Shown: in pieces, positions 2,865 to 8,361 of the stretch
Layout: each line of letters begins with the position of its first letter
How positions within the stretch are numbered: position 1 is the first letter of the stretch
Assembly: GCA_030530785.1 (NCBI GenBank)
Contig: JAUMUJ010000002.1
Location: 1-42,986, forward strand
Origin: Moraxella sp.
Lineage (GTDB): Bacteria > Pseudomonadota > Gammaproteobacteria > Pseudomonadales > Moraxellaceae
Direction: 5' to 3'
DNA length: 42,986 nt
Translations under genes and position numbers: made by a program
The notes under the pieces: generated by a model
Databases searched by the model: none
The model's input: the letters and a program-made list of their open reading frames with translations, nothing else
Told to the model about the DNA's origin: nothing

Positions 2865-3587
2865 TTAAAAATCAACAAAGTATATCTGAATGGGAAAAGT
2901 TACAATATCAAATGCCATCGTTAGAGGAATGAGTGCTTTTTTAGTGGTGCGTTCTATTTGTCCTTTGTGTTTACGAAATTCGTAATGGGTGATGGGTACA
3001 GGCTCTTTGAATCGGTGCGTTAAATTGGCATGATTTTGGGCAGATTGAATGGGAATAAAAGCGATATTATAGGCGGTATAATCACACACTAAGTGAGTTT
3101 TGTAGATGTGATGACTCAAAACATCAGAACAATAAAAATTTAATTTTCTTAATTGTTGTTTTTCGGTTTCTACATTTTTAACTTGATTTAAAGGTTTTTT
3201 AAAAGACAGTGAAATGCGTTCAGCACAACCAAAAGATGACGTGCAAACAAAGCCATTACCTGATTGTTTGACAGCGATTTGATGGTTTGTGGGTAAATTG
3301 ATGTGCAAATATCGCAAATCCATCGTATCTAGAATGCGTTTTAGTGAGTCGGTTTTGTCGTGATTGTGAATCAGGTAGCTGTGTTTTTGACCTGCCAACA
3401 CAAGAGCGTTTTCATAGCCTTGTATTGGTTTGTCGGGCTTGCCGATGGCGATGATGGTGTCGCTCATGTCGGTGGCAATCCAGCGTTTGTCTTTGGATTT
3501 ATTAATGCTTTGCTCTAAGGCACTACTGGCAAAACAGCCTGATAAGCAAAGTGTGAATAATGACACTAATACTACCGATAATTTCAT
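2865..3587 (-). CDS. Lipoprotein of unknown function
   Basis: 240 residues. The frame is open for 37 more codons upstream, but the start MKLSVVLVSLFTLCLSGC gives a textbook lipoprotein signal with lipobox LSGC (Cys18), and GGAG lies eight bases before it. The mature protein opens with a charged linker, and the rest is mixed alpha/beta with Cys pairs around residues 115-121 and 153-167. No family was recognised. A membrane-anchored periplasmic protein is the likely form. It stands between the lrg-type operon and the distal end of the CRISPR array; the 220 bases on its upstream side are AT-rich and hold nothing else I can support. Confidence 0.7.
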   Translation of the reverse strand: MKLSVVLVSLFTLCLSGCFASSALEQSINKSKDKRWIATDMSDTIIAIGKPDKPIQGYENALVLAGQKHSYLIHNHDKTDSLKRILDTMDLRYLHINLPTNHQIAVKQSGNGFVCTSSFGCAERISLSFKKPLNQVKNVETEKQQLRKLNFYCSDVLSHHIYKTHLVCDYTAYNIAFIPIQSAQNHANLTHRFKEPVPITHYEFRKHKGQIERTTKKALIPLTMAFDIVTFPIQIYFVDF

Positions 3588-3809
3588 GGTGCACTCCAAA
3601 TAAAATCCATGCTCTATGACAATTATTATAGGCTGAATTTGGGTGGGTGGCAAGTTTTTTATCAAATCACAATGGTGGGATTCTTGCCAAATGTACAACT
3701 TTCGTTATATTTAGTGTTGTCTTTAATATCGTAGCAATTTGATGATGTGTATTTACAAATTTATATCATAAAAATTAAAAATGGTTTTAAAGGATAATGC
3801 AATTTTAAA

Positions 3810-6734
3810 TCAATCACTTATCTATGCGATAAGGAGTGGTCTGTCATAATAGTTTCCTTATTACAGTATTACAGTTATTTCTAAGTTATCTATGCGATAA
3901 GGAACGCTTAACCGATTTTGCATGGGCAAGCGGTGCATTTCTAAGTTATCTATGCGATAAGGAACATAGCCCCATGCAAAGCATCCGCCCCCAGTACTTT
4001 CTAAGTTATCTATGCGATAAGGAACATGAAGCAGAGTTCATTAAAGAATGGTCTGATATTTCTAAGTTATCTATGCGATAAGGAACAGAATGAAATGCTT
4101 ACTTTTCTTTGGTCTGTTTTTCTAAGTTATCTATGCGATAAGGAACTAGAAGTATATCGTTGCTAATTTTGCCCCATATTTTCTAAGTTATCTATGCGAT
4201 AAGGAACAAATCCGTAAAATTCTAGTCGCCAAACCAAATTTTCTAAGTTATCTATGCGATAAGGAACGTTCAATGGCACACGCCAAGATTTGCTCAATAA
4301 TTTCTAAGTTATCTATGCGATAAGGAACGCCGTGTTCATCTTGACCACACAGCCTTTTTATTTCTAAGTTATCTATGCGATAAGGAACGGCGATGTGCTT
4401 GGCAATATTGATGAGCTACTTTTCTAAGTTATCTATGCGATAAGGAGCGCTTATCCACATGGGTCATGGTGTCCCTAATGTTTCTAAGTTATCTATGCGA
4501 TAAGGAGCTACAAATTGCCATTTCGTGCAAAAGTGAGAGTTTTCTAAGTTATCTATGCGATAAGGAGCATTTTATTTTATTTTATTTGGCAATCTATCAC
4601 TTTCTAAGTTATCTATGCGATAAGGAGCGATTTTTGATAATTCTTTAAATGCTCAAGTTTTTTCTAAGTTATCTATGCGATAAGGAGCCTCTGGAACATC
4701 ATTAGCAAGAGCCACAGCAGTTTCTAAGTTATCTATGCGATAAGGAGCTTTGTAGGGACTGCAAGACGGTTGGCTTGATTTTTCTAAGTTATCTATGCGA
4801 TAAGGAGCACTGGCTTACAGTAACAAGCACAAACTTTGCTTTTCTAAGTTATCTATGCGATAAGGAGCTACGCTTTAACGACACCAATTTTCTAAATTAA
4901 TTTCTAAGTTATCTATGCGATAAGGAGCAGGATACAAGCATACACACATAACCAAACTAGTTTCTAAGTTATCTATGCGATAAGGAACTTTTTGCCATTT
5001 TTGATTTTTTGGCGTTCTTGTTTCTAAGTTATCTATGCGATAAGGAACGGCTTGGTGTGTGGCTCTTTGCCTTTTTGGGTTTTCTAAGTTATCTATGCGA
5101 TAAGGAACAAGCAGTTAAAGAAAGTCGCCAAAATATTGTTTTTCTAAGTTATCTATGCGATAAGGAACCGTTCAAATTAGGTCGTAAGATGGGACTGCAT
5201 TTTCTAAGTTATCTATGCGATAAGGAACGCTAGATTAGATGCCAGATAGCCCCATTTTTGGTTTCTAAGTTATCTATGCGATAAGGAACGGCAGACTTGT
5301 ACAGCTCATTTTGGCGTTTTTTTTCTAAGTTATCTATGCGATAAGGAACAAGTACCTACCAAAAAGGGTATGGTAACACTTTTTCTAAGTTATCTATGCG
5401 ATAAGGAACAGAAAAGGTATTGACGGTTTATGTTTTGGGTTTTTCTAAGTTATCTATGCGATAAGGAACGTGGTAGAGTGCTTTTTTAACGGAGACTTAG
5501 GTTTCTAAGTTATCTATGCGATAAGGAACCTCAAGGCAATTTAAGCCATAAAGCCCCTTATTTTCTAAGTTATCTATGCGATAAGGAACTTGCGATTTGA
5601 TTTTCCGCTTTCGCTTCGGTCTTTCTAAGTTATCTATGCGATAAGGAACGGACTGTAAACACTGGCATTTTTCCCCTGTCAATTTCTAAGTTATCTATGC
5701 GATAAGGAACGAAAAAGAATAAATCACATGAAATTTTTAATTTTTCTAAGTTATCTATGCGATAAGGAACCAGTCTCGTCATCATCTTTGTTATCCCATT
5801 CGGTTTCTAAGTTATCTATGCGATAAGGAACACTTGATGGCAAATAAAAAGATTGAACTGTTATTTCTAAGTTATCTATGCGATAAGGAACTGATAGGGC
5901 TTGCCCTGTCTGTAACTGGCGTATTTCTAAGTTATCTATGCGATAAGGAACGTTTGCACTTGTACACTCATGCATACCACTGTCTTTCTAAGTTATCTAT
6001 GCGATAAGGAACGTGATATTCAGAAATCGGCTCAAAGCCTTGTGTTTTCTAAGTTATCTATGCGATAAGGAACAGCAAGACAAGATTATGACCGAGAAAG
6101 TACGGTTTCTAAGTTATCTATGCGATAAGGAACAGTTATAGCTTTATTCCAATTTGTGATTTTGTTTTCTAAGTTATCTATGCGATAAGGAACACTTAGA
6201 ACGCACTGCACGAATATCAACGTTATTTCTAAGTTATCTATGCGATAAGGAACTCTTTGGTTCGGATTTTCGGGGATACGCTCAATTTCTAAGTTATCTA
6301 TGCGATAAGGAACTAGGAGCCGATGGTGTATGGCGTGGTGAAAGTTTTCTAAGTTATCTATGCGATAAGGAACTTCAAATTTGATGCTTTGGTATGTGTG
6401 CTTATTTTCTAAGTTATCTATGCGATAAGGAACCACTTTTTGCTGTTTTGTGCAAACGTGACGGTTTTCTAAGTTATCTATGCGATAAGGAACATGTGTT
6501 CATAACGATTTCCTCACGGTTCTAATTTCTAAGTTATCTATGCGATAAGGAACCATAGAACGAGGAGACAATCCCTATGAGCATTTTTCTAAGTTATCTA
6601 TGCGATAAGGAACATCAAAGACAAGATTATCCACATCTGCCACTACTTTCTAAGTTATCTATGCGATAAGGAACTTTACATTATTAAATAATATTGAAAA
6701 TGTGGATTTCTAAGTTATCTATGCGATAAGGAAC
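3810..6734 (-). CRISPR. Type I-F-like CRISPR array, 48 intact repeats plus a degenerate end repeat
   Basis: 28-base repeats with spacers of 32 or 33 bases (38 and 9 of the 47 inner ones). In transcript orientation (minus strand) the repeat starts GTTCCTTATCGCATAG and ends ATAACTTAGAAA. It can form the stem TTATC / GATAA around loop GCATA, leaving the 8-base tail CTTAGAAA. This is the same geometry as the known I-F repeat (stem CTGCC / GGCAG, loop GTATA, tail CTAAGAAA). First intact repeat on the plus strand 3878-3905, last 6707-6734. The end repeat at 3810-3837 keeps its stem but has lost the CTTAGAAA part, which marks the old, leader-distal end and fixes the reading direction as leftward. 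Its neighbouring spacer is 40 bases. Repeats 10-18 from the left (4421-4928) carry a T-to-C change at repeat position 2; the rest read GTTCC. No intact cas gene lies in this window. Confidence 0.97.
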
Positions 6735-6855
6735 TAGAATTATACAACATAAAACCCACTTATGGCAAGGCTTAAAGTCATATTTTAGGCATTTACCCAA
6801 TGTTTTTTTGCCTGTTTATAAGCGTTTGATTATTATTAAGTTTTTAAATAGTCAA
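6735..6855 (-). promoter_or_regulatory. CRISPR leader with promoter
   Basis: AT-rich, gene-free DNA at the newest-spacer end of the array, between it and the terminator-like inverted repeat. On the minus strand TTGCCA-N18-TATAAT occupies 6768-6739, with the -10 box only four bases from the first repeat, so transcription would start inside that repeat. A second, weaker TTGACT-based promoter is possible near 6854-6827. Leader identity rests on position, composition and the array direction. Confidence 0.75.
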
Positions 6856-6892
6856 AAAATAAAGGGTATAGATCTTTTTCACCCTTTATTTT
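6856..6892 (-). terminator. Perfect 12-base inverted repeat, terminator upstream of the CRISPR leader
   Basis: AAAATAAAGGGT / ACCCTTTATTTT, perfect over 12 bases with a 13-base loop. On the minus strand it is followed by a run of T. It begins 18 bases after the stop of the Cas6f-like remnant, where the terminator of a cas operon would be expected. It would also insulate the array from leftward read-through. Confidence 0.7.
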
Positions 6893-6909
6893 AGCATAAT
6901 CAGTCTCAA

Positions 6910-6984
6910 TTACCAATGTGGAACGGTGGTTTTGTGTTTATCATTACTGTTATTGACACCGTAGGCACTCAATGCTTGTTTTTG
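6910..6984 (-). pseudogene. Probable cas6f (csy4) C-terminal remnant
   Basis: The minus-strand frame ending in TAA at 6910-6912 reads ALSA followed by YGVNNSNDKHKTTVPHW. Cas6f/Csy4 proteins end in a YGL-x(n)-VPWF-type tail (for example YGLSKGGFVPWF in Pseudomonas aeruginosa), and the gene normally sits just upstream of the leader on the same strand as the array, as here. The frame is closed by TGA and TAA codons just before 6984. The adjacent frame is open from 7235 down to 6969 (ending FMRNDKNKH), so a one-base shift near 6970 could join them, but I see no firm Cas6f motif in that upstream part. No csy1, csy2, csy3, cas1 or cas2-3 is present. The 345 bases from 6985 to the dusB start are otherwise without a gene I can defend. 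Confidence 0.5.
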
Positions 6985-7260
6985 TCATTACGCATGAAGT
7001 TTAAGGGTTGACATTTGGCTTCACCATCACTTGTCTTGTCGGGCAATTTGTATGGTGGCGAGCATTTGCTCATTATGAACGATGATTTAATACGCCACTT
7101 GATGACTTTTAAGGAATATGTGCGATGCATTTGTGGATACTCAGTCATCATTTGGTTGTTGCCTGAACTTGATGAATTAGGCACCAAAGCCTGCAATTCA
7201 TCAAAAATCCAAATAATGGCTGTATATTTAATCAATCTTATAGTTTACTACTTCACAACT

Positions 7261-7290
7261 TGGTTTAAAAAGTTGCAAATATGTTACAAT
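7261..7290 (+). promoter_or_regulatory. Extended -10 promoter of dusB
   Basis: TATG-T-TACAAT-type extended -10: TG at 7282-7283 and TACAAT at 7285-7290, 39 bases before the dusB ATG. The same TATGTTACAAT string precedes the MarC-type gene at 20981-20991. Confidence 0.55.
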
Positions 7291-7329
7291 ATTGATGATT
7301 TATCTCACTTTATACAAGTTTATCACAAT

Positions 7330-8361
7330 ATGACAGCAACAGAAAATCCGAAAAAACCCCTTGAAAATCAACATATTTTATTAAAACCTTTATATATCAA
7401 TGGTTTGAAAATTGATAATAGAATTTGGGTAGCACCGATGGCAGGTGTTACTGATAATCCCTTTCGCCGTCTTGCCAAATCCTTTGGGGCAGGTCATGCC
7501 ATCAGTGAGATGATTATCGCTGATACTGCTCTGTATGCCCGCAAAAAATCGCTGTATCGGGCGAACTTTTCGGGGGAGATTGCTCCCATCTCTGCCCAAG
7601 TGGCAGGTTCAGAGCCTGATAAGTTGGCAAAGGCGGTGCGATTTCAGGTAGAAAATGGGGCATGCATGGTGGACATTAACATGGGTTGCCCTGCAAAAAA
7701 AGTCTGCCGTAAGTTGTCGGGGTCGGCTCTTTTGCAAGATTTGGATTTGGTGGAGCGTCTGCTTGACAGTGCCGTAGAATCGGTGGCAGATTTGGGTGTG
7801 CCAATCACACTAAAAACACGGCTTGGTTTTACTAATGGTCAAGAAAATATCCTAACAGTGGCTAAGATTGCCGAAAATGCAGGCATTTCTGCTCTTGCCA
7901 TACACGGACGCACCCGAGAAGACTTTTATGCAGGCAATGCCCGTTATGAGCTTATCAGGCAAGTCAAGCAAACCTCTAAAATCCCCATCATCGTCAATGG
8001 CGACATTGACAGTCCCCAAAAAGCCAAATGGGTACAAGAGTACACAGGGGCGGATGCTGTCATGATAGGGAGAGCAGGGCAGGGGCGACCGTGGATTTTT
8101 CGGGACATTGCTCATTATCTTGCCACAGATGAGATTTTAGCCCCGCCCAGCGTGAGCGAGCTTCGTGAGATTGTGCTTAGCCATCTTGATGAATTGTATC
8201 AATTTTATGGAGAATATTCAGGCTGTCGCATTGCCCGTAAGCACATCGCTTGGTACACAGGCGGACTTGCCAACTCTAACGCCTTTCGGGAAGCGATGTA
8301 TCGTGAAGAGACGACCAGTGGTCAGTATCGGGTGGTTGATGAGTTTTTAAGGGGTGGTTAG
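7330..8361 (+). CDS. dusB: tRNA-dihydrouridine synthase B
   Basis: 343 residues. FMN enzyme that reduces uridines in the D-loop of tRNA with NADPH. The TIM-barrel start APMAGVTDNPFRRLAKSFGA (residues 35-54) and the catalytic motif NMGCPAKK (Cys120) place it in the DusB branch. HGRTREDFY and GDI near residues 190-225 and IGRAGQGRPWIF near 250-260 form the phosphate/FMN site. The C-terminal helical domain starts near 275. E. coli DusB has 321 residues. The frame is open 105 codons further upstream, but that part overlaps the promoter and shows no conservation, so I chose MTATENPK. In E. coli dusB heads an operon with fis; no fis follows here. Confidence 0.93.
   Translation: MTATENPKKPLENQHILLKPLYINGLKIDNRIWVAPMAGVTDNPFRRLAKSFGAGHAISEMIIADTALYARKKSLYRANFSGEIAPISAQVAGSEPDKLAKAVRFQVENGACMVDINMGCPAKKVCRKLSGSALLQDLDLVERLLDSAVESVADLGVPITLKTRLGFTNGQENILTVAKIAENAGISALAIHGRTREDFYAGNARYELIRQVKQTSKIPIIVNGDIDSPQKAKWVQEYTGADAVMIGRAGQGRPWIFRDIAHYLATDEILAPPSVSELREIVLSHLDELYQFYGEYSGCRIARKHIAWYTGGLANSNAFREAMYREETTSGQYRVVDEFLRGG

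Follow-up and report, generated by a model that had tools for sequence, protein, structure and literature searches.

We found a long CRISPR array without cas genes of its own in a Moraxella sp. genome, and we think it probable that it is a satellite (orphan) type I-F array working in trans with the Cas proteins encoded on another contig, C43. The window, by which we mean the whole stretch of 42,986 nucleotides analyzed, is contig C32:1-42986 of this genome (G000), the assembly of which comprises 1.91 Mb in 57 contigs and is 86.9% complete. Two long I-F arrays of the genome have a 28-nt repeat in common: one is on C43 beside an operon, and the other is in the window apart from any cas gene. The end of a cas6f gene, joined to a phage-like fragment, lies between the window array and dusB. 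The features of this region are as follows.

2865..3590, minus strand: lipoprotein-like gene (no Pfam match; five matches within its own genome)
3810..6734, minus strand: I-F CRISPR array, 48 canonical repeats and a degenerate terminal repeat, the leader end at 6734
6735..6854, minus strand: leader core (-1 to -120), 112/120 identical to the C43 leader
6739..6768, minus strand: promoter-like TTGCCA-18-TATAAT (11/12) just before repeat 1, a consensus match only
6819..6831, minus strand: IHF consensus AATCAAACGCTTA at -97, in the phase of the other full-length leaders
6855..6892, minus strand: 12-bp perfect inverted repeat (arms 6856-6867/6881-6892), its 3' arm overlapping CCTTTATTTTT at -131
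6910..6963, minus strand: last 17 codons of cas6f (YGVNNSNDKHKTTVPHW) and stop, from protein alignment and tblastn
6964..7037, minus strand: KilA-N antirepressor-like fragment, 60/75 columns identical to G000:C4:38191-39009 with one frameshift
7038..7255, no strand: stretch with a 10-bp inverted repeat (7169-7178/7195-7204)
7256..7329, plus strand: dusB upstream region, common to genome G017 (7256-7323, 78%); edge of the foreign stretch
7330..8361, plus strand: dusB (TIGR00737, 348.5 bits, cut-off 293.3)

The window array and the resident cas operon

The canonical repeats of the window array are 28 nt long and come in two forms, 39 beginning with GTTCC and nine with GCTCC; all 48 are uniform save for this one T/C variant. 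The degenerate 49th repeat is at 3810-3837. There are 47 spacers of 32-33 nt, and the last interval measures 40 nt. The repeat length, the 32-nt spacers, a 5-bp stem and the CTTAGAAA 3' end are those of a type I-F array; the repeat stem is predicted to be weak (-2.5 kcal/mol, with z values of -1.4 and -0.8 against shuffles). The gene at 2865..3590 is called lipoprotein-like on the basis of what we take to be a lipobox.

The first-pass annotation, made from the letters of the window, had proposed that the array would depend on Cas proteins encoded elsewhere. All of the genes it suggested looking for, csy1-4, cas1 and cas2-3, were found on C43, in a complete I-F operon with an array of the same repeat. 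Their products, Cas1f, Cas3f (a Cas2-3 fusion), Csy1, Csy2, Csy3 and Csy4, all scored above the NCBIfam cut-offs, and a Cas2 domain was found in Cas2-3 (queried as 1019 residues), the reading frame of which is open throughout. The single csy4 of the genome is the one on C43. Because the assembly is 86.9% complete and divided into 57 contigs, a further cas locus could be missing from it. Among 22 genomes of the genus, 12 had csy4 and 14 had a match to the window leader stretch.

Compared with M. caprae (G002), the C43 proteins are 51% (Csy1), 72% (Csy4), 88% (Csy2) and 94% (Csy3) identical, and Cas2-3 is 92% identical over residues 310-1063; these uneven values suggest that alleles have been exchanged within the operon. 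As judged from open reading frame lists only, M. lacunata (G005, L066) has frames of 249, 273 and 635 residues where G002 has one cas2-3 frame of 1063, and another genome (G012, L065) has no frame of csy1 length between a 1013-residue cas2-3 frame and csy2.

Use in trans would proceed in the following way. The leader promoter would transcribe the window array, Cas6f encoded on C43 would cut its repeats, giving crRNAs expected to carry the CUUAGAAA handle, and Csy1-3 would take up these crRNAs. Cas1 and Cas2/3, together with IHF, would add spacers to the window array as well as to that of C43.

The cas6f tail and the phage-like junction

We aligned 12 Cas6f proteins of the genus to the region in a frameshift-aware manner, with 15 base-composition shuffles for each. 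The best alignments, with a score of 70, were those of the M. caprae and M. lacunata proteins, which matched the last 24 codons without an indel (QKQALSAYGVNNSNDKHKTTVPHW vs QTGVFNTYGITNINDETKASVPHW); the shuffle scores of these two proteins had a mean of 28 and a maximum of 37, and the maximum over all 12 queries was 46. The tail was the best alignment of six of the 12 queries (70, 70, 51, 46, 43 and 43), while the other six aligned best elsewhere at noise level (23-32). In tblastn, residues 178-201 of G002 Csy4 matched the tail with E=0.001, and Csy4 of G000 itself matched it with E=1.4. We limit the assignment to the last 17 codons, beyond which the 24-codon alignment extends. An apparent extension, QKQALSA, was rejected as cas6f since it is KilA-N-like, and none of the 12 Cas6f proteins found frameshifted remains of the gene above noise upstream of 6963. 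The suggestion that the frame ends like Cas6f is thus confirmed for 6910..6963 on the minus strand of 6900-7330, and upstream of codon Y (6963) a KilA-N-like phage sequence was found instead. The order proposed earlier, cas6f end, stem, leader and array, was also borne out: the distance from the cas6f stop to the first repeat is 175 nt in the window and 177 nt at the intact C43 locus.

The Cas6f protein of C43 aligned to the tail with a score of 43, below the 70 of the caprae and lacunata proteins. That the tail is closer to these alleles than to the resident one suggests that its source was not the present-day C43 locus; the block would then derive, we infer, from an earlier or foreign cas6f allele.

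Directly upstream of the 17 codons lies the 74-base KilA-N-like piece. Its counterpart on contig C4 has a Pfam KilA-N match (9.2e-22), and in PHROGs it matched a family of unknown function best (1.1e-58), then a transcriptional regulator (1.6e-40) and an anti-repressor (4.5e-30). The frameshift-aware protein score of the fragment against this gene was 76, compared with a maximum of 33 in 12 shuffles, and a second match was found in G006 (75% identity over 64 columns). The window frame at 6969-7235 (88 aa) had no Pfam, NCBIfam or PHROG match in hmmscan. We therefore describe 7037-6964 as similar to KilA-N genes, on the strength of DNA and frameshift-aware similarity to one gene. Similarity searches assigned no source to the DNA upstream of 7037.

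The sequence in front of dusB is common to G017 up to the edge at 7256. In G017, a reading frame interrupted by a stop codon lies past this edge, directly beside dusB (L073 7442-8142); a 159-residue part of it matched a phage integrase family (3.1e-8), second to a family of unknown function (6.9e-10), with no significant Pfam match. This integrase-like remnant suggests that a phage attachment site lies in front of dusB in the genus.

Origin of the window array

We favor the explanation that recombination moved a block comprising the array, the adjoining leader and 17 codons from the end of a neighbouring cas6f. The block would have landed at a phage-scarred place before dusB, joining a fragment of a phage antirepressor gene, and the cas6f codons would be a passive scar of this event. 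Three observations make such a move of the leader and array more plausible than the decay of an operon: the abrupt phage-like junction, the lack of any other cas fragment in the 43 kb, and a precedent in G013. The search for cas fragments was done by tblastn with Cas1, Cas2-3 (cut to 1019 residues) and Csy1-4 of G000 and with Cas2-3 and Csy1-4 of G002, and apart from the tail nothing better than E=0.09 was found in the window. In G013 (stretches C1:1272000-1286000, L068, and C1:1240000-1258000, L067), a second array lies about 24 kb from csy4 behind a 200-bp leader copy with 97% identity, and none of its 25 spacers is among the 59 distinct spacers of the other stretch. By eye, both G013 stretches seem interrupted by transposase-like sequence.

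The first-pass annotation had read the same region as the place where a cas operon was lost. According to this explanation, the space between dusB and the leader was once occupied by another complete I-F operon; a phage recombined into its cas6f, and the remainder was deleted. This would account for the usual order and spacing in which the cas6f end, the stem and the leader are found, and also for a cas6f allele other than the resident one. However, a decayed operon should have left further cas fragments upstream in operon order, none of which was found, and the Cas6f similarity stops at a piece of a phage-like gene. In addition, none of the dusB loci fetched from 18 relatives had a match to Csy3 or Csy4 beside dusB, where the first-pass annotation had suggested looking for an intact operon. 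These loci cover only about 1 to 8 kb of upstream DNA and the neighbourhood is not conserved, so the 18/18 result is weak when taken alone; a conserved ancestral cas site at dusB is likewise not supported because the upstream region differs between species in the seven of the 18 loci listed. Taken together, the data do not support the claim of loss at this site, and we regard it as unlikely.

Equally unlikely, in our judgement, is delivery by a temperate phage that acquired the leader-array block in a host whose cas6f was caprae-like; on decaying, the prophage would have left the block behind at its attachment site before dusB. The KilA-N-like fragment at the junction fits this explanation, as do the non-resident tail allele, the dusB-side boundary beyond which G017 has its integrase remnant, and two other I-F repeat pieces that lie among phage genes of the same genome. 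However, phage records had no match to 7300-6960, and the exact repeat was found in no viral contig. The attachment core, itself a guess from a motif upstream of dusB, has no second copy in the window or elsewhere in G000, and its one further match in G017 has three mismatches, although a second copy could be hidden by the incompleteness of the assembly or by deletion of one end.

The first of these pieces is a mini I-F array at G000:C43:83891-84162 (L061 1892-2163). It consists of three exact repeats, a fourth with a change, and three spacers, and is flanked by a tape-measure gene on one side and by a phage gene, phrog_4408, of unknown function on the other. It stands behind 64 bp of leader in which TTGAAA-18-TATAAT is kept by eye and the IHF consensus is absent. 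Its third spacer matches the adjoining phrog_4408 gene at 25 of 32 positions and has CC 5' of the match, a pattern that the available part of PMC6858448 describes for mini-arrays carried by phages, their target being the neighbouring gene in a related phage. At three or fewer mismatches, no target other than the spacer itself was found in the 22 genus genomes. The second piece is a solitary exact I-F repeat at G000:C3:9451-9478 (L062 2452-2479), 24 bases behind TTGAAA-17-TATAAT (one promoter-like match, vs 1.3 in shuffles). It precedes tRNA-Met and tRNA-Thr; the contig, 10 kb long, also carries a phage integrase gene and a BRO-N gene. The repeat is a candidate RNA anti-CRISPR by analogy with the RacrIF kind, as presented in the accessible portion of PMC10651486. 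With the mini-array and the solitary repeat, the genome offers a compact example of array traffic linking phage and host. A broader conjecture is that phages move leader-array blocks between Moraxella I-F systems, and that the window array originated in a host whose cas6f was caprae-like, reached a phage attachment site in front of dusB, was adopted by the resident Cas proteins and grew to 48 repeats while its leader was kept in step with the resident one; we hold this to be quite unlikely as well.

The leader of the window array

Returning to the array as a satellite probably used in trans, we compared its leader with those of the genus. Of the 195 aligned columns that precede the first repeat, 175 are identical between the window and C43 leaders. 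From -1 to -120, the window has 107-112 of 120 positions in common with four cas-linked leaders (89-93%), and the cas-linked leaders have 109-112 in common with one another (91-93%), or 119 (99%) for the G002/G005 pair. From the cas6f stop to -121 (58 columns), the window is identical at 44-49 columns (76-84%), compared with 52-56 (90-97%) among the cas-linked leaders. Changes unique to the window number 8/58 in the latter part and 4/120 in the former (Fisher p=0.02, a test from one locus), which gives a weak indication that the leader core was kept while the segment from the cas6f stop to -121 drifted.

The IHF consensus, which we take to be WATCAANNNNTTR, is at -97 in nine of 12 leaders and at -93 and -96 in two more with a less exact cut point, so that 11 of the 12 have it near -97. 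Promoter-like and terminator-like matches were given little weight: the region has three promoter-like matches, compared with 3.4 in shuffles. The 12-base stem described earlier as a terminator is present and perfect. The role is another matter, since the stem arm overlaps CCTTTATTTTT, which is found near -130 in 10 of the 12 leaders examined, some of them kilobases from csy4; this makes a terminator-only label doubtful. A terminator scan did not report the stem, the 13-nt loop of which exceeds the limit of 8 in the tool.

The leader may also be a mosaic. From -1 to -60 it is closest to the C43 leader (58/60), with which it shares GCC, and from -61 to -120 it is closest to that of M. caprae (53/57), a hint, from few sites, of exchange between leaders. 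A leader of 60 bp gave no detectable uptake in A. baumannii, and at least 100 bp were needed for a high rate, according to the available part of PMC9602844.

Spacers and growth of the two arrays

The window and C43 arrays have no spacer in common. Spacers W33 and C43-22 share an overlap of 27 nt, in which they lie on opposite strands; W37 and C43-3 overlap by 16 nt, and another pair by 13 nt, which was the longest overlap in 60 rounds of shuffled window spacers. The two arrays look as if they had been fed separately from the same invader. The order of the repeat variants from the far end, nine GTT, nine GCT and 30 GTT in the window vs 29 GTT and then 23 GCT in the C43 array (52 repeats), differs in a way that also fits separate growth.

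The 27-base core had no other site in the 22 genus genomes (three or fewer mismatches) and none in viral contigs. A match of a 16-base core in 57 viral contigs was rejected as chance because none of the 98 spacers of both arrays fits these stretches at six or fewer mismatches; this comparison covered stretches other than L001, L002, L003, L017, L093, L103, L118 and L119, which are arrays or flanks, and its 15 rows are the window array in L020. A plasmid match (Acinetobacter, 69%, in six pieces) was discounted as probably due to similarity of the repeats. The matching stretch, NZ_CP087336.1:47015-48906 of an Acinetobacter baumannii plasmid, is possibly a plasmid-borne I-F array. Phage records contained no target of the window array, and no protospacer was found for it; interference by the array is putative.

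These data bear on the alternative raised in the first-pass annotation, that the array is silent memory, copied here and no longer transcribed or updated: the drift from the cas6f stop to -121 and the lack of targets in phage records and, for the 27-base core, in genus genomes and viral contigs would fit it, but the uniform repeats, the conserved leader core and IHF phase, and the independent spacers directed at a target shared with C43 make it very unlikely.

Comparison with known arrays

Satellite arrays of this kind are known. In the available text of a survey of distant arrays with the same repeat (PMC12814883), such an array likewise has no adjacent cas genes, shares a genome with a cas-linked array of the same repeat and has different spacers; unlike these, the window array bears the 3' end of cas6f fused to phage-like DNA, a mark of the way in which it moved. 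The same text reports that acquisition frequencies are similar among arrays whose repeats are identical, whatever their distance from the Cas locus, and that arrays farther away are shorter for most types, I-F included. The window array is nearly as long as that of C43, contrary to this trend.

The orphan I-F CRISPR4 arrays of E. coli (Almendros et al. 2016, as treated in the accessible parts of PMC8616872 and PMC12814883) also have no adjacent cas genes. They belong to lineages that lost the I-F cas genes, and their spacers fit those genes (PMC8616872, available part). In contrast, the genome studied here has a complete operon. All 47 window spacers were compared with it, and none fits at seven or fewer mismatches; nor did any of the 47 fit the operon stretches of G002, G005 and G012 at six or fewer. 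Virus-borne mini-CRISPR arrays (Medvedeva et al. 2019, PMC6858448, in the part available) resemble the window array in being cas-less and beside phage-derived sequence. They have one or two spacers, whereas the window array has 48 repeats and a full leader; the mini-array on C43 fits that family better.

Among the matches listed in the literature on orphan I-F arrays and cas remnants, in a library without most subscription journals and with texts available in part, no title or opening of an abstract described a cas6f tail joined to phage DNA. The orphan array is of a known kind, and its junction between cas6f and phage-like DNA is informative. Orphan arrays are usually counted without knowledge of how they arose, and here the junction can be read: 17 cas6f codons joined to a phage-like piece suggest a move as a leader-array block, and a second species has a comparable copy. 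Together, the evidence from the genome, the leader and the spacers makes the use of such an array in trans testable.
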